Shown here piece after piece: positions 1-20,648 of a DNA stretch of 64,000 nucleotides (its first letter is position 1; every line of letters begins with the position of its first letter). Below the pieces are notes generated by a model. The model was given only the letters and a program-made list of their open reading frames with translations. It was not told the origin of the DNA and ran no database searches. This stretch comes from a virus. Made by a program: the position numbers and the translations under genes. The stretch covers positions 1 to 64,000 of the IMG/VR virus record IMGVR_UViG_3300015202_000006; one strand, written 5' to 3'.

Positions 1-3000
1 TGCTTTGCGGCCATCTTCACGACGTCGAGCTGTCTCCAGGTATTCCACTCTTCGTCGGCGACCGGGGTGCCTTGGGGTGTCTCAACGTAGAAGTCGACCA
101 CCATGGTGTTGGTGTCCAAGGTCCCGTCGAAACGGATCTGAGGTTCCATATGATGTCCGGCAGCCTTCAAGATGGGGATTAGCGCGTCGTTCGCACCGAA
201 ACGGATCCGCTGGATGAAATACCGAGAATAGGCGGCGTGGATGCCTTCGGTAACGTCCATCACCTTAGAGATGGTGCCTGAAGGCTTAATCACCGTAGTT
301 CGAATGCTCTCAGGGATGTTGAGCTGTTTGGAATAGTCGCGGTTTTCCTTTTGAATGGCGTCGTAAACACGGTCAAGGACCGAAGGATTGAAGAACTGAG
401 GAGCCTGGAGGCACCCTGTAATGCCGGTTCCCACGCGACGATTCCTGCCAATCACTTCCATAACCTGCGGATGATGATAAAATTCAGTCGTGACCCGCTT
501 ACCCCAGCGGTGCATGAGAATCCCTGCCTCTTCGAACTCTTCGACTGAATCGAGATTAGGAAGAGGGATTTCTTGGAGATTGCAGGGCTCGAAATTTTCG
601 AGCGTAGCTTCGGCGCATTGCCCCGTTAAAACTCCATTGAAACATCCAAGGTTGCGCTTGGGCTCCGTAAAGCAGTAGACGACATCCGCTACGCCCGCCG
701 GCTCTACTGAGATAACTGTGGTGAATCTGATTGCCTCTCGTTGAGGAGAGGCCTCGAAGCTCACTCGCTCAGTATTCATCCCAAGCGACAGAAGGTCCTG
801 AATTTGAGTGGACCCGATCAAGATGCGTTTCGATTCTTTGCACATGTACATGGCTGTTCCGCCCCTGCCATTCGGCATAGACCTTTCGCCAGCGTCTCTT
901 CCGTCGCAAACTTTCGACTGTACGCCGAGGGTCGTAAGCATGCGCTGCACCTTACTCAAGAAGGCGTGATCAACTGACACGATCTGACAGCCTCCCTCGA
1001 TAGTCCTCGTACCATCGGCGTCAATCAACCCGGCCAGCCAATCTAAAGAAGACTGCACGTCCCACGTTTCTGGAACAAAGTTTTTAGGCTTGGGATCGAA
1101 CCGAAGAGATACATATGTTCGGTCTTGGGATTCTGAGTATGCCCCAATTTCTACATTCATGCGTGGGATGCATTTCACCTTTTCACCATACACAGTGAAA
1201 CCCGTGTAGCCGTCCATCCCATCACCGGACAGGAAGCCCTGGCCGTAGGCCCACTTGATCGCCTCACCGCCTTCGATAACAGGAAATTTGTGCTTGATCA
1301 GCTTATCGCCGGGGACAAGGTCCTGAGCGTCCTTCCGTTCGGCCCCACCTCGATAGTCGGTCGACAAGACGAATTTGTGCGCGATGGTGCAAGTCAGCGA
1401 TCTGCCGTCACTCAAGGCGACCTTGACCATTTCTTGGTTGTGTCCGGTCACGCGAGGAGTAACCATCGACCATTCAAAACCATTCCATACGTTGATGGTC
1501 TTACCGACAAGCGTCTGGATTTCCTCGTAACCGGTCTCGGTCAAAATCTCGGTTCCAGCTGGCACGCAAGGGTTTACTCCGACCGCAGTGTCCTTTTTCT
1601 TTTCGCCCATCCGACCGTAAGTCTGGATGTTCTTGCGATTGACGATTCCAAAGGGCTCGCCATTCTCGTAGGTCTTCCAGAAGAGTGGTGTCAGGTCCTC
1701 GTCAACGTCTTCACAAACGACAGACAAATTGGCGAACGCACGCCAAGTCGGGATCGGACCGAGGTCCCAGCGCTTCGACTTCAGGTATTCCTTGTCGAAG
1801 GGGTCACCGAGGATAATGATGGCCGATCGGCGTACGTTGCCGGCAACGACCATTTCTCCCGTGCAACAAAGGAGGTCCATGGCGTCGATTGGCCGGATGT
1901 GCTTGCCTTCACGGGCGAGTAGAAGGGCGCAAACGTTCTCAATGAACTTGATGAGCGGGATTGGGCCTGAGGCGGTTCCGCCAAACCCGACAATGGATTC
2001 GCCGTATCCACGAACGCAAACCGTGGAATAGGTGAAGCCCTTGCCAGTTACGAAGAACGCTTCCAACGTACGGCGAAAAAGCTCGCACCAGCCTTCACGA
2101 GAGTCAGGGACGATGAAGTCAGCATCCTTGGTGCCTTTGTGTTGGATGACGACACTTCTTTTGATCTTAGGCAGCTTCGAGGCGAAGCGCTGCTCTACGG
2201 ACATCCCTACGCCTCCTCCGAGCATCAGGAGATCCATGGCGATGACAAAGTTGTTCCACTCTTCCGAGGTAACGAACCAGCAGTTGCCAGTGACGGTTCC
2301 GTACTCAAGTGTGAACGAGCGAGTTTCGGGTTCTGTGACGCAGTAAACGGGCTCGACGATATTTAAATCTTCAATAGATCGCACAAAGAGAAGTGACGAC
2401 TCGTTTTTGATCGTGAGTGTTCGAATCTGATTTGACCGCACTCCAAAATTTGTCTCAAGATTCGAGTCTATGATGTCGCCGGTGATCACTACCCCGAGTA
2501 GTGGGGCGCGCTCGCGCAGCCAGTCGATAGCGGCGTGGTCGGTTGACCCCAGGCGGCCTCGTGTCGATCCGTCCGCAGCGAACCATCCGTTATAAAATCC
2601 GGCCTGGTAATCCCACGAAGTCCCATCACCCGGAACTTCCTTGAGATTAATTTGTGATTTCAAAGTTACAACAGCTTCAAAATTCGAAGATAGGTGTCTG
2701 GCCACCGAAACAAAACCGTCCTGCTTCATCAGGGCATCTAAGTGTTTAGATTTGTCGCCGCATAGACGGATCGCAAAGCGTTCTGGGTAGTAGGTGTGCC
2801 GAGTCCCGTCGCCGAAAATTAGACCGTGTGCGAACCCATTTTTAAAATCCTGAGAATCTTCAAGAGCCTCTCGTGGGTTAACTCGGACCTGGTCGCCGAC
2901 TTGAAGGTCGGTAGTATCCCCACGTTCGGTCAGCCACATATGGTTTCGAGTCGCGTAAAAATATTGCTCGGCCCCGCCGCCCCGTGGAGACATCGTAATT

Positions 3001-3422
3001 TTGAATAGCGCCTGCTCACCGAACTTCGAGACAACCGCCTTACGCTGTTTTCCGTCAGCGCATATGACTGAAACGCTACGTCCAACGACCTCCTTAAAGG
3101 ATTGAAGCCTTCCGTCTGCGAAGAATCGAGTATCTCCGGAGAAGCAATTATTAAGCGCTACGCCGCCAATGCGTGCGTGGGATGGCGCTCCCGAGAACCA
3201 ATAGCCGCGTCCTGCAGGACCTGCTTTGCGGTTGAGCATGAGGTAACGGAGTCGATCTTCTTCATTTGGAAGGAGATGTTTAGTTCCGCGAAACCGTCCA
3301 ATGTTGCCTTCGATTACTCGATCGATGGTCTGGGTCCAGGTTTCAGTAGGACCAAAGTCTTTACGGGCGTAGGTGCGTTTGTAAACAACCTTGGCAAGGT
3401 TGCTCCACAGCTTAACTGACAT
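1..3422 (-). CDS. nrdJ: Class II (B12-dependent) ribonucleotide reductase with two inteins, partial
   Basis: Reduces ribonucleotides to deoxyribonucleotides for phage DNA synthesis. The minus frame is open from ATG at 3422 to the window edge (about 1140 codons, 3' end missing). Host-protein segments read ALNN, then CWFVTSEEW...LGGGVGMSVE, GNVRRSA, ANLSVVC, then GVNP, CAEATLENFEPCNLQEIP and VIKPSGTISKV. These match adenosylcobalamin-dependent NrdJ-type enzymes. Two inteins interrupt it: 3146-2283 sits just before the Cys of LNN^CWF, and 1568-618 just before the Cys of NP^CAE. Both insertion points are conserved active-site segments. The start is supported by AGAGG about 8 nt upstream and a variant phage promoter some 50 nt upstream. 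NrdJ identity is certain from the motifs; splicing activity is inferred. Confidence 0.93.
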   Translation of the reverse strand, partial: MSVKLWSNLAKVVYKRTYARKDFGPTETWTQTIDRVIEGNIGRFRGTKHLLPNEEDRLRYLMLNRKAGPAGRGYWFSGAPSHARIGGVALNNCFSGDTRFFADGRLQSFKEVVGRSVSVICADGKQRKAVVSKFGEQALFKITMSPRGGGAEQYFYATRNHMWLTERGDTTDLQVGDQVRVNPREALEDSQDFKNGFAHGLIFGDGTRHTYYPERFAIRLCGDKSKHLDALMKQDGFVSVARHLSSNFEAVVTLKSQINLKEVPGDGTSWDYQAGFYNGWFAADGSTRGRLGSTDHAAIDWLRERAPLLGVVITGDIIDSNLETNFGVRSNQIRTLTIKNESSLLFVRSIEDLNIVEPVYCVTEPETRSFTLEYGTVTGNCWFVTSEEWNNFVIAMDLLMLGGGVGMSVEQRFASKLPKIKRSVVIQHKGTKDADFIVPDSREGWCELFRRTLEAFFVTGKGFTYSTVCVRGYGESIVGFGGTASGPIPLIKFIENVCALLLAREGKHIRPIDAMDLLCCTGEMVVAGNVRRSAIIILGDPFDKEYLKSKRWDLGPIPTWRAFANLSVVCEDVDEDLTPLFWKTYENGEPFGIVNRKNIQTYGRMGEKKKDTAVGVNPCVPAGTEILTETGYEEIQTLVGKTINVWNGFEWSMVTPRVTGHNQEMVKVALSDGRSLTCTIAHKFVLSTDYRGGAERKDAQDLVPGDKLIKHKFPVIEGGEAIKWAYGQGFLSGDGMDGYTGFTVYGEKVKCIPRMNVEIGAYSESQDRTYVSLRFDPKPKNFVPETWDVQSSLDWLAGLIDADGTRTIEGGCQIVSVDHAFLSKVQRMLTTLGVQSKVCDGRDAGERSMPNGRGGTAMYMCKESKRILIGSTQIQDLLSLGMNTERVSFEASPQREAIRFTTVISVEPAGVADVVYCFTEPKRNLGCFNGVLTGQCAEATLENFEPCNLQEIPLPNLDSVEEFEEAGILMHRWGKRVTTEFYHHPQVMEVIGRNRRVGTGITGCLQAPQFFNPSVLDRVYDAIQKENRDYSKQLNIPESIRTTVIKPSGTISKVMDVTEGIHAAYSRYFIQRIRFGANDALIPILKAAGHHMEPQIRFDGTLDTNTMVVDFYVETPQGTPVADEEWNTWRQLDVVKMAAK
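618..1568 (-). other. Intein 2 in RNR, with LAGLIDADG homing endonuclease
   Basis: 317 residues between GVNP and CAEA. Begins CVPAGTEILTETGYEEI (block A). The block-B-like segment is SLTCTIAHKFVLS. It carries GQGFLSGDGMDG and an exact LAGLIDADG (WLAGLIDADGT), so the homing endonuclease is probably intact. It ends VVYCFTEPKRNLGCFNGVLTGQ before Cys+1, when the gap-free junction is read in two pieces: VVYCFTEPKRN and LGCFNGVLTGQ. The terminal residue is Gln rather than Asn and the penultimate residue is Gly, an unusual C-terminus known only from a minority of inteins. Confidence 0.88.
2283..3146 (-). other. Intein 1 in RNR, with LAGLIDADG-type homing endonuclease
   Basis: 288 residues between ALNN and CWFV. 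Begins Cys-Phe-Ser-Gly-Asp-Thr, the classic intein block A. A block-B-like ATRNHMWLTERG follows. Two dodecapeptide-like motifs, GFAHGLIFGDGT and GFYNGWFAADGS, mark a DOD homing endonuclease. The C-terminal block is FTLEYGTVTGN followed by Cys+1. The penultimate residue is Gly, where most inteins have His, so the final Asn-cyclisation step may use another helper residue or be slow. Boundaries are set by aligning the flanks with RNR. Confidence 0.88.
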
Positions 3423-3472
3423 TCAAGATACCTCTGAGTGGGATAAAATTTGCGAAGTAGACCGCTATGAAT

Positions 3473-3483
3473 TTTATACGAAA
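3473..3483 (-). promoter_or_regulatory. Phage promoter motif (variant) upstream of RNR
   Basis: Minus strand reads TTTCGTATAAAA, one base off the phage consensus TCCGTATAAA. It lies 50 nt before the RNR ATG, leaving a leader with an AGAGG ribosome binding site. Confidence 0.6.
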
Positions 3484-3552
3484 GAGGACGGATGCCTTTT
3501 GTCCGTTAGAAACAGGCGTTATCCGTTAGAATTATTGAAGAATTAAATACAT

Positions 3553-3601
3553 CATTAATGCTGAATATAGCTTACGTTCGAAAATATTCTTTGGCAGAAT
3601 T
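3553..3601 (+). promoter_or_regulatory. Sigma70-like promoter with CATTAATGCTGAA element
   Basis: CATTAATGCTGAA at 3553-3565 is identical to half of the palindrome at 10885-10902. It is followed by TTACGT (3572-3577), an 18-bp spacer and AGAATT (3596-3601). The ATG of the broken small gene is 6 nt downstream. The match to the -35 and -10 consensus is moderate. Confidence 0.45.
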
Positions 3602-3607
3602 AAACGC

Positions 3608-3742
3608 ATGAAGACTCAAGCAATCACAGCTCTTGAGATCGAACCGGGAATGCTAATCTAGGACCGCGACTTCTGGTCGTATGTTGTCGGCGTCTCTAAG
3701 CTTCTCATCAGTGGCCTATCTAGAGTGTGCAGCTGGTCTTGA
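3608..3742 (+). pseudogene. Small gene interrupted by an in-frame amber codon
   Basis: ATG at 3608 reads MKTQAITALEIEPGMLI, then TAG (3659-3661), then DRDFWSYVVGVSKLLISGL and so on to TGA at 3740-3742 in the same frame. The sequence on both sides looks like one 44-residue protein cut by a single base change. Other genes here end in TAG (10633, 17416, 19707, 55843), so general amber recoding is unlikely. It could be a true stop after 17 residues, a mutated gene, or readthrough. Confidence 0.4.
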
Positions 3743-3744
3743 GA

Positions 3745-4508
3745 GAGGTTCTTATGGAACTCTCCTCTCTACCGCTCACTCTTACGATACGTCTCTCCTA
3801 GAGGCTTATGAGAGGGCTATCAGGGGCTTCTTCTCTTAGAGAGGGTATTCTCTTTCTCTCTAAGTTCCCTCTCAAGACGTGACAATCCCTTTTTATTACC
3901 ACCACTCTTGTCCCCCGGAAGGGTAAAAGCTTTAGGTAGCTGTCTAAGGGTTAGTTCCTATTACCTCTTAGAGAATCTTGTAGAGACATTGGCCATGATA
4001 GGAAGGCTAATTACAGCCCTTCGATTTTCATTGTTGTTCTATCCTCTCAATCACATTGAGAAGATTGCTACCGGTAACGGTAAGGATTACTCCCCTGATT
4101 CACAGGCTTAGATGGAAGAACCATCATGTGCTTTTAGACAAGCGAACATACAACGCAGTCTCAGAAACAACACGGGAGTTACACCCGCCGAAGTGTCCTG
4201 AACAGTAACTCTGAAAATCAGCCTTTATCTTTATGCTCGGAGATTACTTTGGGCGGGGTTCGCGTCAATGATTGTCCTGGAATGTTCCACCAGAGGCGGC
4301 CCTACACTTAGCCCGGATCACCAACCCGGGTTCATTTCTCTCTTAGTTGAGGGTTGTTTCCTCTATGGTCACAGAAGCCGCCTAAGCAGCCGTAGCCCAC
4401 TGTCTTATCAACCTTCAATTTCAATCTCACTTGAGATTAACGGCATTTCTATAACGGAAGCTGCCGTGGCCCACCCGGACACATAAAGGACTGAGCCCAA
4501 TACACGTC
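3745..4508 (-). ncRNA. Candidate large structured non-coding RNA
   Basis: No convincing intact gene occupies this stretch. A full phage promoter motif at 4515-4524 points into it on the minus strand. The sequence is dense in complementary segments: perfect hairpins at 4423-4438, 4312-4330 (5-bp CCCGG/CCGGG), 4044-4060 and 4002-4022; 8-bp pairing of 3836-3843 with 3856-3863; and a nested long-range stem of 4184-4189 with 4252-4257 enclosing 4205-4211 with 4240-4247. Size and phage context recall the giant ornate RNAs GOLLD and ROOL, but I recognise no family consensus. The 3' end is a guess: structure fades near 3741, where a GAGAGG hairpin (3741-3770) sits. Confidence 0.55.
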
Positions 4509-4514
4509 ATAGAT

Positions 4515-4524
4515 TTTATACGGA
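4515..4524 (-). promoter_or_regulatory. Phage promoter for the candidate structured RNA
   Basis: Minus strand TTTCCGTATAAAATC is a perfect copy of the motif. Expected transcription start is near 4508. An ATG at 4510 opens only a 27-codon frame (to 4430), so a coding role is weak. Confidence 0.65.
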
Positions 4525-4548
4525 AATGGGATGGGTTGGATTTTCGGA

Positions 4549-4644
4549 TTAGAAATGGAGGAGGAAGGAGAATAGGTAGGCGAGTGTGAGGGATGGGATG
4601 ATGAGCGAGATGAGGACGAGCAGTGGGAGAGCGAAAACCTTCAT
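4549..4644 (-). CDS. 31-residue membrane micro-protein
   Basis: MKVFALPLLVLISLIIPSLT and a further 11 residues. Almost the whole chain is hydrophobic and would span the inner membrane once. Its ATG overlaps the stop of the 41-residue gene in an ATGA junction, so the two are probably translationally coupled. Function unknown; a lysis or membrane-effector role is only a guess. It is the last gene of the minus-strand micro-operon. Confidence 0.6.
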   Translation of the reverse strand: MKVFALPLLVLISLIIPSLTLAYLFSFLLHF

Positions 4645-4766
4645 AGAAGGATAAGTTTTTGGACAAGAGCGGAGATTGCCATGAGACAAACACCCGTACC
4701 AAAGAGAATGAACGCGATGAATGTTCCGAGCGCGAATGCCACGAAGATGTTTCTAATTGGGCTCAT
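4641..4766 (-). CDS. 41-residue membrane micro-protein
   Basis: Starts MSPIRNIFVAFALGTFIAFI, with one clear hydrophobic span in the first half and a second hydrophobic stretch (LVQKLILL) at the end. Its start overlaps the end of the preceding CxxC protein gene by 14 nt, and its stop overlaps the next gene. Unknown function; it is probably an inner-membrane peptide made by coupled translation. Confidence 0.62.
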   Translation of the reverse strand: MSPIRNIFVAFALGTFIAFILFGTGVCLMAISALVQKLILL

Positions 4767-4965
4767 TGGGCGCGTCTTTCGTTTTGGTTCGGTTTAGATG
4801 CTCTTCGATTGATTGGGCGGTTTGTGGGTCGCCCATAGAATTATTCATGTGACAGGTCGTACAAAGATCGAGGTCCGTGCCGTCTTCTTCTTTGGCAGGA
4901 GACTGAGTAATGATGCGACAGACATCGCAAAGTACGGCCCCGTTACCGGAATTGAATTTGAACAT
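4753..4965 (-). CDS. Small CxxC/CxxC zinc-binding-like protein
   Basis: 70 residues starting MFKFNSGNGAVLCDVC. Two CxxC pairs (CDVC and CTTC, about 25 residues apart) suggest a single zinc-ribbon or treble-clef fold. The chosen ATG at 4965 shares its A with the TAA of the upstream lipoprotein gene (TAATG), and AGGA lies about 12 nt upstream. A longer in-frame start at 5043 would run deep into the upstream gene and is unlikely. Possible nucleic-acid or protein adaptor; no known family recognised. Confidence 0.68.
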   Translation of the reverse strand: MFKFNSGNGAVLCDVCRIITQSPAKEEDGTDLDLCTTCHMNNSMGDPQTAQSIEEHLNRTKTKDAPNEPN

Positions 4966-5174
4966 TATTTCCGGTTTCCTGTCCGGTCCGCCTGGCGCTC
5001 GGTCCGTTCTTCTCTTGCGAGAGCTTTTCCGTAGGGGGAGCAATCAACGATTTCCTTGTCGTTCTGATTAGTTGAGTGCAGGCAGTCCCAGGTGGGGTTT
5101 GTTGCACAATTGTTCAGGACGAACGTCAGGAGGATCAGTAAAGAGATCGTTCCGTAGGGTTTCAGGTTGTTCAT
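4965..5174 (-). CDS. Small predicted lipoprotein
   Basis: 69 residues. Starts MNNLKPYGTISLLILLTFVL, then NNCATN: a signal peptide ending in a lipobox-like FVLNNC. Lipidation would anchor it to a membrane facing the periplasm. AGGAAGG precedes the ATG closely. The C-terminal half is polar and charged (ALAREERTERQADRT). Outer-membrane spanin is one possibility, but no paired inner-membrane spanin is clear beside it. Confidence 0.66.
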   Translation of the reverse strand: MNNLKPYGTISLLILLTFVLNNCATNPTWDCLHSTNQNDKEIVDCSPYGKALAREERTERQADRTGNRK

Positions 5175-5347
5175 AAACCTTCCTGGTCTAGATAGATTTC
5201 GTGGGCGTTTCCTTTCCACATATTTCCGTCGGTAAGGAGAACCATCACTTCTTTGCCCCAAACAGCGACAACAGTGCCCTTACTTTCCGTTTCACGGATT
5301 TCAGAGTCTTTCTTTCTTGCTACAATCACGACATCGCCTTCTTTCAC
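5171..5347 (-). CDS. Small hypothetical protein, beta-rich
   Basis: 58 residues, GTG start read as MKEGDVVIVARKKDSEIRET. The alternation of hydrophobic and polar residues (GTVVAVWGKEVMVLL) suggests a small SH3-like beta barrel. GTG overlaps the preceding stop (GTGA) and its own stop overlaps the lipoprotein ATG (ATGA), which supports the reading. Function unknown. Confidence 0.6.
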   Translation of the reverse strand: MKEGDVVIVARKKDSEIRETESKGTVVAVWGKEVMVLLTDGNMWKGNAHEIYLDQEGL

Positions 5348-5499
5348 TCGGTTTCCTTTTTTTCTTCTTCCAGCATTGTTTCGACTAATTCGACATGTTG
5401 CGGGTTGACGGTTTCGGTGTTGATCAATTCTCTGAGACCTTTTCTGGCCTCAAACTTGGTAAGTTTTCCTAATTGCCACTGAACGCAAACTGCGCACAT
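5344..5499 (-). CDS. Small hypothetical protein with N-terminal CxxC
   Basis: 51 residues starting MCAVCVQWQLGKLTKFEARK. The C-terminus is acidic and helical (ETMLEEEKKETE). Start overlaps the preceding stop as TGATG. One CxxC pair near the N-terminus could be redox-active or half of a metal site. Function unknown. Confidence 0.58.
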   Translation of the reverse strand: MCAVCVQWQLGKLTKFEARKGLRELINTETVNPQHVELVETMLEEEKKETE

Positions 5500-5615
5500 C
5501 AGGACTGTCTCCAAAGAACGGCCTTCTTACGGGTAGAGAAGTATTTAACTTTGAACCCGGCGTAGTGGACTTCGGTATACTCGACCGTCCAGGCGGGGAA
5601 CCTCTTGGCGGCCAT
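5499..5615 (-). CDS. Small basic hypothetical protein
   Basis: 38 residues, MAAKRFPAWTVEYTEVHYAG and then FKVKYFSTRKKAVLWRQS. Basic and aromatic. Linked to both neighbours by one-base overlaps (TAATG upstream, TGATG downstream). No family recognised. Confidence 0.55.
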   Translation of the reverse strand: MAAKRFPAWTVEYTEVHYAGFKVKYFSTRKKAVLWRQS

Positions 5616-5812
5616 TAAAAGCCACCGTCGCCGTATTGGCCATCGTCAAGCTCGAGTACGCTTGCGATGCTGTAGGAGGTTTTGCTGTCTCGCGCGATTC
5701 GTACGGCTTCTAGCTCGGTACGGGCGTTGACGTAGCAAAGGACAGTACGAAGGAGAATCGTATCGTAGAGAACAACTTCGAACTGGAGAATGGGAAGTGC
5801 TGAAACAGTCAT
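5615..5812 (-). CDS. Hypothetical protein, first gene of micro-operon
   Basis: 65 residues starting MTVSALPILQFEVVLYDTIL. Preceded by GAGAGGG as ribosome binding site and a perfect phage promoter motif 20 nt upstream. It heads a chain of eight overlapping minus-strand genes ending at 4549. The C-terminus is acidic (LELDDGQYGDGGF). Function unknown. Confidence 0.62.
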   Translation of the reverse strand: MTVSALPILQFEVVLYDTILLRTVLCYVNARTELEAVRIARDSKTSYSIASVLELDDGQYGDGGF

Positions 5813-5832
5813 AGACCCTCTCTTCCGTAACT

Positions 5833-5842
5833 TTTATACGGA
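5833..5842 (-). promoter_or_regulatory. Phage promoter for the minus-strand micro-operon
   Basis: Minus strand TTTCCGTATAAAAG. The sequence also forms an inverted repeat with TTCCGTA just downstream (5823-5829), so the promoter could fold or bind a dimer. The leader is about 20 nt with a ribosome binding site. Confidence 0.7.
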
Positions 5843-5896
5843 AAGGAGGGTCTAGCTGTTTTGGTTCAGGTATTTAGAAAGGTAAGTGTCGAAAGA

Positions 5897-6370
5897 TTAG
5901 GCAGCGCCACTCAGACCGGTAGGGCCACAAGTATCATCATCATCATCGTCGTCGTCGAGACACGCGTCGAGCAGATCGTCTTCGGTGAGAGGAGGCTCCT
6001 CCTGTCTTAAACCTTTTGGGTTAATGAGATCGTTTAAGAAAGTAGCAAACTTTTTAAGATCAAAAGGCTTATCGATAACGACGATGTTATGGCCTAATTT
6101 GAAAAGCCGGGATTTGGCTTCTGTGCCTAATGCCGTGATCATGATGATTGGGATGTTTGCCTTTAGGGCCGCCTCCACCAGAACGTCTCCACGAACTCCA
6201 GGCATCTGAAAGTCGGTCACTATCATGTCGGGCTCTTGGGTCTTGAGGAACTCGAATGCCTCATGAACGTTCGTCACGCTCGTCACCCTCATTTTTGCTC
6301 GACGTAAAATTTTCGTAATAATCAGTCGAATCTCATCGTTATCTTCGACCAGAAGAATGTGTTTACTCAT
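5897..6370 (-). CDS. Response-regulator receiver protein with poly-Asp tail
   Basis: 157 residues. CheY-like receiver domain at 1-115: acidic pair in LLVEDNDE, phospho-acceptor Asp in VTDFQMPG, conserved Thr/Ser region IIMITA, and Lys in VIDKPF. There is no output domain; a short linker leads to a run of eight Asp near the C-terminus. It could accept phosphate from a host histidine kinase and act by protein contact, as CheY and Spo0F do. It is unusual in a phage and is one of three receiver-like proteins here. A variant box (TGTATAAAT, 6386-6395) lies upstream. Confidence 0.88.
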   Translation of the reverse strand: MSKHILLVEDNDEIRLIITKILRRAKMRVTSVTNVHEAFEFLKTQEPDMIVTDFQMPGVRGDVLVEAALKANIPIIMITALGTEAKSRLFKLGHNIVVIDKPFDLKKFATFLNDLINPKGLRQEEPPLTEDDLLDACLDDDDDDDDTCGPTGLSGAA

Positions 6371-6526
6371 GTTGCGTCTCGCTCCGATTTATACAACCAA
6401 GCACGATAGCCTTTGTTGCTTGTTATAAGAGTATCGTCCTTATTTTCTTATTATTAAATGTGTCCGAGATGACAGATTGAAAAACATATACAATCGTTGG
6501 TTTGCTAACTTTAGTGGGTCACTCGG
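6371..6526. other. Divergent intergenic region
   Basis: 156 nt separating the minus-strand receiver gene from the plus-strand aminotransferase. It is AT-rich and contains TTGTATAAATC reading minus (6386-6396). Apart from the flanking promoters I see no gene. Confidence 0.4.
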
Positions 6527-6537
6527 TTCCGTATAAA
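6527..6537 (+). promoter_or_regulatory. Leaderless phage promoter, aminotransferase
   Basis: TTCCGTATAAA; TATAAA ends at 6537 and the ATG is at 6544, a 6-nt gap. AGGAG touches the ATG directly, too close for a normal ribosome binding site. Confidence 0.75.
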
Positions 6538-6543
6538 AAGGAG

Positions 6544-7521
6544 ATGATTGACACACGCATAGGGAACCCTGAGTTCATGAAACCCTATTGGCAGGCCTCT
6601 GAGGAGACGTTCCCGGGGCTTAATGTCCCTGTCTCCAGGGGCATGCGCTACGACCGTTCCCCGGAAGAACGCCAGCTTAAGGAAGAGATCGTTCGGATTC
6701 ATCAAAATATTAAGAACGTGGCCAATCCCGGATCGTATGAAATCGTCATTGGCTGTGGGGCCACGCAGCTACTCGCTGCCGCTCTCTACACGGCAAAGCG
6801 CTCCGGTATCGATGAGGTATACGCTCGCCCTCCTTATTATTTTAGATTTCCGTTTATGGCAGACGCTGCCGGCCTAACCCTCACCGGAAGTGGTATCGGT
6901 ATTCGAGCCCGTCCGCACGCCGAAATCATTACCGTCCCAAGTAATCCAGACAATGTCGTTTACGAACAGAGTGATCTCGCGTTCCCTATTTTTGATCTCT
7001 GCTACAATTGGCCCCAGTACGGGCAGGTCATTGCCCGCGATGACGATCTGATGATTTATGGGATGTCTAAAGCCACAGGTCATTCGAGCTGTCGGATTGG
7101 TTGGGCTCTTGTAAAAGACAAGAGCGTCGCAGAACAGATGCGTTTCTACATTGAAATCGCTTCAGGCGGATCGTCCATTGAATCCTTGATTCACGCAAAA
7201 ATGATTCTGAGTGATCAGTCGCACCTCTATGATGAAGGGTCCGAAACGGACTCAGTCTTTGAATACGGGAAAGAAATCTTGAACGATCGCTGGGAACAAA
7301 TCAAAGCGCTCGATGTTCCTTGTCTGGAGGTGCTGAACACATCCGGCATGTTCCTCTGGGCGACATACAAGGATGGAATGGCCAGTCTTCGTCAAGACAC
7401 TCAGATCCATGGGACTGACGGTTCGCTTTGTGGAGGCAGCTCAAAACACGTTCGCATTAGTATTGGCGGTTCGAATGAGAACTTTCGGGAAGTTATCAAT
7501 TCCTTTAAAGGACTAGAATAA
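6544..7521 (+). CDS. PLP-dependent aminotransferase, class I/II, alliinase/TAA-like
   Basis: 325 residues of fold-type I PLP enzyme. Residues fit the cofactor site: IGCGATQLLAAAL (phosphate side), SNPDN, IFDLCYNWPQY, and the Schiff-base Lys in YGMSKATGH followed by SSCRIGWALV. The pattern (cGATQ, YNWPQY, SKATGHSS.RIGWA) recalls alliinase and plant tryptophan aminotransferase families more than AspC. The start at 6544 was chosen over 6502 because it lies exactly 6 nt after the promoter box. Substrate unknown. Lying upstream of an IPNS-like oxygenase and ThyX, it may serve nucleotide modification or a small-molecule step. Cytoplasmic. Confidence 0.85.
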   Translation: MIDTRIGNPEFMKPYWQASEETFPGLNVPVSRGMRYDRSPEERQLKEEIVRIHQNIKNVANPGSYEIVIGCGATQLLAAALYTAKRSGIDEVYARPPYYFRFPFMADAAGLTLTGSGIGIRARPHAEIITVPSNPDNVVYEQSDLAFPIFDLCYNWPQYGQVIARDDDLMIYGMSKATGHSSCRIGWALVKDKSVAEQMRFYIEIASGGSSIESLIHAKMILSDQSHLYDEGSETDSVFEYGKEILNDRWEQIKALDVPCLEVLNTSGMFLWATYKDGMASLRQDTQIHGTDGSLCGGSSKHVRISIGGSNENFREVINSFKGLE

Positions 7522-11866: not shown

Positions 11867-11953
11867 TGGTCCCCGCGAATCGACTCGAACGATCATGCCC
11901 TTGCGAGCGCCGCGCCCTGAACACGGTGTGTCTACCAATTCCACCACGCGGGG
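11867..11953 (-). tRNA. tRNA-Leu (CAG)
   Basis: Minus strand folds as a type II tRNA. The acceptor CCCCGCG pairs with CGCGGGG, followed by A and an encoded CCA. The anticodon stem is CCGTG/CGCGG with loop TTCAGGG (anticodon CAG). A long variable arm GCTC-GCAA-GGGC and a T arm with TTCGAGT complete it. Total 87 nt, normal for leucine tRNA. It lies 9 nt from the integrase 3' end. It could serve translation of CTG codons or as an integration site. Confidence 0.93.
11926..11939 (+). repeat. Direct repeat copy within tRNA-Leu (att-like)
   Basis: GTGTGTCTACCAAT, identical to 13285-13298. Similarity extends leftward over CCCTGAA with four mismatches in 25 nt. In the tRNA it covers the D arm and part of the anticodon stem. 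Confidence 0.6.
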
Positions 11954-18151: not shown

Positions 18152-18595
18152 ATGGCATCCATCGAACAGTCTGGAACTTTTCATCTGGCTCGCCGTATAG
18201 CTAAAACGGTTGCTCCAGAATTTCGAATCTTCGCTACTGACCAGCTTAAGCCAGGCGAAATCGTGCTCGATTTACGTCGCAAAACTATCGAAATTTGCGA
18301 GACTTGCGATGAAATGCAAGCTGTTGCGGGAGTATTGTTTCAGCTCGGACACGTTCGTCTTATGGGACGGGATGGGACAGATCTCGAAGCGCATTTCGGT
18401 AAGATCAGCCCTACTGCCGATGAGACGTTCCTTGTAAAAGATATAATCAAGCAAGGCATCATCGCGGACAAACTCGCCTCAGAGTGGGCCACAAGCGTTC
18501 TTTCCAACACTTGGAACATGGATGTGTCGGCCGCCGCATCATTGATTGATGAATACGTTTGGACCGAAGCTGACTGGCGATCCTACTACCGCTAA
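18152..18595 (+). CDS. Hypothetical protein
   Basis: 147 residues starting MASIEQSGTFHLARRIAKTV. Mixed alpha/beta with VAGVLFQLGHVRLMG, faintly like the helix of a metallopeptidase but without a full HExxH. Two aromatic residues close the chain (DWRSYYR). It begins one base after the preceding stop. Confidence 0.64.
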   Translation: MASIEQSGTFHLARRIAKTVAPEFRIFATDQLKPGEIVLDLRRKTIEICETCDEMQAVAGVLFQLGHVRLMGRDGTDLEAHFGKISPTADETFLVKDIIKQGIIADKLASEWATSVLSNTWNMDVSAAASLIDEYVWTEADWRSYYR

Positions 18596-18630
18596 AGTCG
18601 GGGAAGTGTCTAAAATATATACATCTAAAA

Positions 18631-18685
18631 TGCTGAATTATTGCTAAATAAAAGCTAGACATCCACGGATGGGAGATGCTATCCT
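18631..18685 (+). promoter_or_regulatory. Sigma70-like promoter upstream of primase
   Basis: TGCTGAA (18631-18637) recalls the operator at 10885. TAGACA (18656-18661), an 18-bp spacer and TATCCT (18680-18685) make a plausible host-type promoter. Confidence 0.5.
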
Positions 18686-18696
18686 AAATTAGTAGT

Positions 18697-18717
18697 GAGG
18701 GAGTTTTTACGAAACTC
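18697..18717 (+). promoter_or_regulatory. Ribosome binding site bridged to primase ATG by a hairpin
   Basis: GAGGGAG (18697-18703) is over 20 nt from the ATG at 18724, but GAGTTT-TTAC-GAAACTC (18701-18717) can fold and bring it near. Folding and ribosome binding would compete for GAG. Confidence 0.4.
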
Positions 18718-18723
18718 GATCTG

Positions 18724-19707
18724 ATGAAAAAGCGATTCCTTGAGAATGGAATCACTGTGAAAGAGACTCAGCGATCCTGGTACTTTACGTGCCCGGGCTG
18801 CGGCAAAGAAGACAAGGCCTGGCTGATCAAATCATCAGGCTACACTTCTTGCTGGAGCTGCGGACGTAACTGGTACAACTGGGCGCAGGTTCTCAAACAG
18901 ATCTTCAAGGGCGACTCAGAAGAAGTTCTAGAGGCGGTCAATGAAGTTCAGACAGGAGATGTCTTAAATCATCTTCCTTTCATCATTCACCGTACTGGTG
19001 ACGAAGAAATTGAAGAAACGACACTCGTGGATTTTGAGCCGATCGAATTACCGATCGACTTTATTCCGGTGGAACAATCGGAGACCGGTATGGCGTATTT
19101 AATTGAGAGAGGAATAAATAGCGCAGAACAGGTTGCTCAGTTCGACATTCGTTACAGCAGCAATATGAACGCAATCGTATTTCCTGTGAAAAAGGGCGGT
19201 TTAGCTTATGGCTGGCAGGCACGTCGAATCAGACCCACCGGAAATCTTCCGAAAGTACAGACGTCTAAAGGGTTTAAGAAAGCCGAATTCTTGTTAAATT
19301 TTAATACCATTCAGGATCGCATACAATATTCTGACGAAATCTTGACAGCGCGCGTTAAGAATCTAATACTGGTTGAAGGCCCAGTTGACTGTATTCACGC
19401 AAATGTCCTTCCCCAAGCGGTGGCAGTTGCGAGTTTCGGAAAACTGGTTTCTCGGCAGCAGCTGGATCTTTTGATTCAGTCGGAGGCCGAAAATATCTAT
19501 CTCGGACTAGACCGGGACGCAGGACGTGAGCTGATGAAACTAGCAGAAGCACTACATTCGCATAAGAGAATTTTCAGAATGCTGCCTCCAGAGCATAGGA
19601 AAGATATGGGCGAGTGTACGCCCGAAGAGATCCAGGAAAGCTTCGACGGCGCAGTAGAGATATCTGCGATCAGAGCACAGTGGATGGAGGTCTATCTCAA
19701 GGAATAG
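18724..19707 (+). CDS. DNA primase (zinc finger plus Toprim)
   Basis: 327 residues. The N-terminal zinc motif CPGC...CWSC (residues 24-48) is followed by a Toprim domain with Glu in LILVEGPVDCI and the Asp pair in LGLDRDAGRE. The linker region VFPVKKGGLAYGWQARRI fits DnaG-like catalytic cores. Makes RNA primers for lagging-strand synthesis, presumably with the DnaB-like helicase at 50013. It has a sigma70-like promoter, suggesting early expression. Confidence 0.9.
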   Translation: MKKRFLENGITVKETQRSWYFTCPGCGKEDKAWLIKSSGYTSCWSCGRNWYNWAQVLKQIFKGDSEEVLEAVNEVQTGDVLNHLPFIIHRTGDEEIEETTLVDFEPIELPIDFIPVEQSETGMAYLIERGINSAEQVAQFDIRYSSNMNAIVFPVKKGGLAYGWQARRIRPTGNLPKVQTSKGFKKAEFLLNFNTIQDRIQYSDEILTARVKNLILVEGPVDCIHANVLPQAVAVASFGKLVSRQQLDLLIQSEAENIYLGLDRDAGRELMKLAEALHSHKRIFRMLPPEHRKDMGECTPEEIQESFDGAVEISAIRAQWMEVYLKE

Positions 19708-19766
19708 GGGGAAAAGATTTACAGGGGCTTTGGGTTCATAAATTTAAAGATTCGAAGGAACGCAAT

Positions 19767-20648
19767 ATGAGCAACAGCAGCGCTTTTAAGAGACCTCCAA
19801 AGAAGAGAAAGAAAGTTAAAAAGGCAAAATCTTTTGTCTTGTTGGACTACGCTCAACTTGAGGCTGAGCATATGCAAACAGTTCACTTCTTCATGAAGAA
19901 GAAGTTCCCTCTCGGTCGCGGCCCGGGCCTCCCAACCCGCGAAGACATCAAACAGCAGATGATGATTCAGATCATCAAGGCCATGCATAAGTTCGATCCT
20001 GAACGCTATTTGACCACCTCTTCGTACAACGAAGAATTGATCAAGGATCCAAAAACCAAGCAGATGCGCCCAAATAAATTCTATAATCCTGCCAAGGGTG
20101 CGGAGCAAATTGCCATGAAGCAAGTATGCCCCGAAGCTTCCCTGAAACAGGGTCGTATTCAATATGGATTTGGAGCACTTACCAACTGGTGCCGCCGATT
20201 CCTCAGCGAGAATCATCCGGATAAGCTGGGGGGCATGGAAGTGAACCTGACGGACTTTATGGCGAACACCGATCTCGGCCAGCTGGCGAACCCAGAAGAT
20301 AGCTATATCGAAACGGAAAGCTCGGTTTCGATGCAGATGTCTTCTTCGGAAGACTCGCTCTCTTTCTACAGCGAAGAAGCCAGGGAGGAGCTTGAGTTCC
20401 TTCTTGCCGCTGCAGAGAAAGAAGACTCGATGGCGATTAAGCGCCTGTTTGCTGCCATGGATGAAGAAACCAAGGCCGCAGTTGGCGCAATGATCCATAT
20501 CGTTTGTCGTCAGGCCGATCAGCGCAAGTATCTTGGCGCCAACGGAGAGGCCAAATTCGACAAGTACCAAAAACTTGTGGTCGAACAAAAAGAAGAAGAG
20601 ACTCCCCAGTCCTCTTCCGGCTTCGAAGAGTCCGACGACGAAACGTAA
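19767..20648 (+). CDS. Possible phage sigma factor (region 2-like segment)
   Basis: 293 residues starting MSNSSAFKRPPKKRKKVKKA. After a basic N-terminus, REDIKQQMMIQIIKAMHKFD followed by PER resembles sigma region 2 (helices contacting core polymerase and the -10). A loop and ALTNWCRRFLSEN follow. No clear region 4 is seen; the C-terminus is acidic (EEETPQSSSGFEESDDE). T4 gp55 is likewise a small sigma reading a single TATAAATA box, much like the motif here. This link is inference. AAGGAA precedes the ATG. Confidence 0.42.
   Translation: MSNSSAFKRPPKKRKKVKKAKSFVLLDYAQLEAEHMQTVHFFMKKKFPLGRGPGLPTREDIKQQMMIQIIKAMHKFDPERYLTTSSYNEELIKDPKTKQMRPNKFYNPAKGAEQIAMKQVCPEASLKQGRIQYGFGALTNWCRRFLSENHPDKLGGMEVNLTDFMANTDLGQLANPEDSYIETESSVSMQMSSSEDSLSFYSEEAREELEFLLAAAEKEDSMAIKRLFAAMDEETKAAVGAMIHIVCRQADQRKYLGANGEAKFDKYQKLVVEQKEEETPQSSSGFEESDDET

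Follow-up and report, generated by a model that had tools for sequence, protein, structure and literature searches.

Giant RNAs encoded by phages are, to our knowledge, few in number, and each unrelated family provides an independent case on what such RNAs do. GOLLD forms a homo-oligomeric RNA cage, and it is frequently, though not universally, located near tRNA genes. The most abundant transcript of phage ICP1 is an ~800-nt noncoding RNA located in an ~1-kb ORF-less space between gp139 and gp140 (PMC7567579). In the case of phage K, two long noncoding RNAs (lnc001 and lnc002) have been described (PMC9241854).

The DNA that we analyzed (the window) was 64,000 nt long and covered nearly the whole of a 64,064-base virus record. 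Several of its proteins (portal, terminase, capsid, DNA polymerase, and GroEL) placed it with the large tailed phages. The portal was of a distant SPO1/Herelleviridae type, and the nearest relatives in IMG/VR (G003, G008, and G011) showed about 50% protein identity in the structural module. Genes ran leftward from 1 to 6370 and mostly rightward from 6502. The candidate stretch was flanked by the ribonucleotide reductase (RNR) gene, which started at 3422 on the minus strand, and by a micro-operon. The only tRNA gene was a tRNA-Leu at 11867-11953, ~7.4 kb from the candidate RNA. The RNR (1-3422, minus strand) was a class II enzyme that apparently carried two inteins, with a LAGLIDADG domain in the second. 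An inverted repeat (5820-5862) lay over the micro-operon promoter (GACCCTCCTTTCCGTATAAAAGTTACGGAAGAGAGGGTC), and an alliinase-like PLP enzyme was encoded at 6502-7521 (plus strand); a peptide-pattern search of IMG/VR found no relative of this protein. A replication origin at the candidate stretch was rejected because no clear skew change was found there.

The original prediction described positions 3745-4508 as ~750 nt without a convincing intact gene, and our analysis of coding potential agreed. The gap at 3423-4426 was the longest ORF-poor gap in the window; the longest ORFs in the stretch (67 and 72 codons) were on the plus strand, and a PHROG search with the ORFs of the stretch returned no family match. 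With 28 genes as the training set, a codon model gave true frames an average of 0.17, whereas the maximum score from 3720 to 4500 was 0.04.

A perfect minus-strand phage promoter had also been placed at the edge of the stretch, and the sequence TCCGTATAAAA was indeed present at 4524-4514. The motif [CT]CGTATAAA occurred at ~23 sites in the window (for example, 8505, 28750, and 53748 on the plus strand and 49975 and 44176 on the minus strand), and nearly all of the sites besides that of the RNA directly preceded a gene start. In 12 other copies of the promoter, the offset from the C of CGTATAAA to the first base of the ATG or GTG was exactly 14 nt. When this 14-nt rule was applied to the site at 4522 (minus strand), G4508 was therefore predicted to be the first base of the RNA; G4508 was also the first base of the predicted helix that closes the whole RNA. 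A -10 element is usually located 6-8 nt upstream of the transcription start. Given this spacing and the fixed 14-nt offset, the genes of this promoter family are probably leaderless, and the fixed start-codon offset in the twelve cases suggests that leaderless mRNAs are widespread in the phage. The rule also allows exact transcript starts to be predicted phage-wide. Two promoters lacked a long ORF nearby (13382 on the minus strand and 24903 on the plus strand), and a candidate gene was located ~105-120 nt downstream in both cases; the site at 4522 was the only promoter of the family with ~900 nt of gene-free DNA downstream. We did not call the promoter late because the motif was also found before replication and metabolic genes. 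The TCCGTATAAAA promoter was almost missing in the relatives examined, and a motif search of IMG/VR yielded three single-site contigs.

Based on the promoter and the closing helix, we infer that the RNA extends leftward from 4508 to ~3603 (minus strand, ~905 nt), which replaces 3745-4508. Thus, the gene-free, structured stretch was retained and its extent was redrawn. The proposed parts and neighboring elements, listed from the promoter leftward, are as follows.

4514-4524, minus strand: promoter of the RNA, TCCGTATAAAA, a perfect copy of the motif
3603-4508, minus strand: proposed RNA of ~905 nt, with a putative start from the 14-nt offset rule and a putative 3' end from the closing helix
4492-4508, minus strand: closing helix P0, 5' side, predicted to pair with 3603-3618
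4359-4490, minus strand: branched 5' domain, predicted minimum free energy (MFE) structure identical to the centroid (z -3.57, 0/200 shuffles)
4289-4308, minus strand: long-range helix P1, 5' side, predicted to pair with 3655-3677 over a span of ~650 nt
4169-4266, minus strand: predicted arm with a nested stem and ordinary energy (z -1.26)
4029-4155, minus strand: predicted seven-way junction of six short hairpins and one closing helix (z -5.15, 0/200 shuffles)
3692-4003, minus strand: predicted 3' domain that includes the helices 4003-3991/3716-3703 and 3974-3963/3805-3794 as well as hairpins rich in GAGAG
3655-3677, minus strand: P1, 3' side, predicted to pair with 4289-4308
3603-3618, minus strand: P0, 3' side, predicted to pair with 4492-4508
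3586-3600, minus strand: weak AU-rich hairpin (P 0.73) followed by ATATTTT, a possible 3' end
3473-3483, minus strand: next promoter, TTCGTATAAAA, a motif copy for the RNR gene

The predicted fold was well determined on the minus strand. The mean positional entropy was 0.56 on the minus strand versus 1.26 on the plus strand, and 203 pairs on the minus strand had a probability above 0.8 versus 81 on the plus strand; the best of 60 coding windows had an entropy of 0.59, and the best of 60 shuffles had an entropy of 0.56. P1 had a probability of 0.89-1.00 under every boundary variant, and the internal helices had probabilities of 0.83-1.0 under all assumed ends. P0 had a probability of 0.85-1.0 when the RNA started at the promoter and ended at 3490-3603, and 0.59-0.76 when the RNA was extended to 3300. 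This helix, in which 5 of 14 pairs were G-U, disappeared if the start was placed upstream of the promoter-derived start, and equally good pairing was found in 1 of 100 shuffled 5' ends.

Folding energy was less informative. For positions 3540-4530, the full-length z score was -3.98 on the minus strand and -2.90 on the plus strand, and for positions 3671-4512 the corresponding values were -3.43 and -3.93. The z scores of 32 coding controls had a mean of -1.24, a standard deviation of 1.53, and a minimum of -4.86. Because coding windows reached values of -3 to -4.9, energy alone did not set the stretch apart from other parts of the window or discriminate between its two strands, and pairing certainty is the better measure for this RNA candidate.

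The strongest element of the minus-strand fold was the junction at 4155-4029 rather than the nested long-range stem highlighted in the original prediction. That stem exists as sequence (4184-4189 with 4252-4257, CCCGCC/GGCGGG; inner 4205-4211 with 4240-4247, with one bulge), but its local fold was not exceptional (z -1.26 on the minus strand and -1.91 on the plus strand). In the case of the junction, the hairpins were separated by linkers of 0-4 nt, and the MFE structure matched the centroid. Among 3,952 other 127-nt windows, six branches were found in 2, an equally low entropy was found in 1, and both were found in 0; none had at least four branches together with the entropy of the junction, which was picked post hoc from the fold. 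Ranked by energy, the junction came about ninth of the separate sites across the window. These junction statistics are uncorrected for the choice of the domain after the fold was known. The junction was mirrored on the plus strand because of complementarity, and the mirror was weaker (z -3.59, entropy 0.39).

A search of positions 3400-4700 with 4,227 Rfam models yielded no match at gathering thresholds or up to an E value of 10. Run on other phage contigs, this tool did recover a twister ribozyme, tmRNA, and tRNA. tmRNAs with tRNA clusters were located in two related phages (L083, 11380-11800, and L077, 10024-10433, both on the minus strand), and a Twister-P5 match was located in contig L092 (13650-13717, plus strand). 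OLE, HEARO, group I and II introns, tmRNA, and RNase P were rejected as identities on the basis of this search, in line with the earlier statement that no known consensus was recognizable. The covariance models of GOLLD (RF02032) and ROOL (RF03087) had no match in the record at an E value of 10. Identity with either family was rejected on this basis; the location near tRNA genes that is frequent for GOLLD was also lacking.

Searches for relatives were similarly negative. The stretch had no sequence similarity to phage or plasmid records, and no homologue of it was found at 29 loci of RNR relatives (mostly ≤65% identity over the N terminus) or at 12 loci of portal relatives (≤54% identity); the major capsid protein yielded no route to relatives. 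Exact 17- to 19-mers gave chance matches only, the junction pattern plus a covariance model had no match over 32 contigs, and two single-sequence covariance models run over 1.05 Mb of relatives recovered only the window itself and one chance-level match. One sequence of the RNA is therefore known from the collections searched (IMG/VR relatives, phages, and plasmids), which is weak evidence of rarity. The related 157-kb phage G003 has a 1.8-kb gap without ORFs of more than 75 codons (18582-20363, L080/L081), the longest ORF-less gap there; it showed no similarity to the stretch and no clearly comparable or exceptional fold.

The lack of homologues in these collections would also be expected if the stretch were debris left by decayed genes or by a decayed mobile element, in which the promoter is a relic and the fold arose by chance. 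We consider this explanation unlikely, though less so than the other rivals. The folding energy was inside the range of coding windows, and one frame was an exception to the low codon scores: plus-strand positions 3608-3739, which overlap the 3' end of the RNA, scored 0.14 and resemble a small gene interrupted by TAG (MKTQAITALEIEPGMLI, the in-frame TAG, and then DRDFWSYVVGVSKLLISGLSRVCSWS, *DRDFWSYVV...). Searches with this coding-like frame gave no match; the frame could be what is left of a gene or a product of chance. On the other hand, the junction and the certainty of the fold were outliers, the promoter copy was perfect, and the ORF remnants had no matches.

An improbable explanation is that transcription from 4508 continues into the RNR gene and that the stretch is a long, structured 5' leader that regulates the RNR mRNA in cis. 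The RNR gene follows farther along the same strand. A terminator scan identified no strong terminator either between the two or at the putative 3' end, and the hairpin at 3586-3600 was not among its hits. However, a separate promoter copy at 3481 serves RNR, 59 nt upstream of the start of that gene, a 900-nt fold with paired ends is unlike a leader, and most related RNR loci lack a comparable upstream gap.

Several phage and satellite noncoding RNAs are believed to act as antisense or sponge RNAs (PMC7567579), and such action could be directed here against phage or host transcripts. We find this very improbable, since the RNA showed no significant complementarity elsewhere in the window (phage sequence only) and neither its length nor its tight fold points to such a role. 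Least credible of all is that the stretch encodes unrecognized small proteins: besides the two plus-strand ORFs, there is a 27-codon ORF at the promoter, but there were no family matches, codon scores were low, and the only ORF on the strand of the promoter was the 27-codon ORF, whose ATG is off the 14-nt position.

The explanation that we favor, by a modest degree of confidence, is a free-standing structured noncoding RNA of ~905 nt that has its own promoter and a structural or scaffold role exerted through its fold. Its own promoter and the lack of an ORF, two traits of large free-standing phage noncoding RNAs, were both found here. Together with the strand-specific fold and the closing helix, they favor the original reading of a large structured noncoding RNA; with a single known sequence, however, the claim of a new family is premature. 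During infection, the RNA would be transcribed leftward from its own promoter, starting at G4508 and independently of RNR. Its two ends would pair, and the rest is predicted to fold into several branched domains, including the seven-way junction. More speculatively, the fold itself might give the RNA a structural or scaffolding role, either self-assembled or protein bound, much as has been suggested for phage RNAs of the GOLLD and ROOL types, rather than a role as an mRNA leader or an antisense RNA. The giant-RNA interpretation is plausible but unproven. It is a more tentative possibility that the locus represents an undescribed giant phage RNA family, with paired ends, a seven-way junction, a separate and possibly abundant transcript, and assembly or scaffolding like that of GOLLD and ROOL, though unrelated to them.

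The candidate resembles GOLLD (RF02032) in being longer than 800 nt, phage encoded, and composed of numerous branched domains, but the only tRNA gene of the window is ~7.4 kb away. Like ROOL (RF03087), it is large, multibranched, and phage encoded, but ROOL is ~660 nt long. By analogy, it is plausible that the RNA works like these two. With the ICP1 noncoding RNA, it shares an ~1-kb ORF-less gap, a large RNA, a lytic phage, and the lack of an adjoining tRNA gene; transcription was demonstrated in ICP1, whereas it is inferred here, and the two have no detectable sequence similarity. The likeness to lnc001 and lnc002 is that both are large noncoding RNAs from a Herelleviridae phage, the type to which the portal found here is distantly related, and that one of them is driven by a promoter of its own, but the phage K RNAs adjoin tRNA genes and have no sequence similarity to the candidate. 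The candidate is probably a real free-standing large RNA of the sort seen in ICP1 and phage K and typified by GOLLD and ROOL, but it belongs to neither of these two families and is an orphan.
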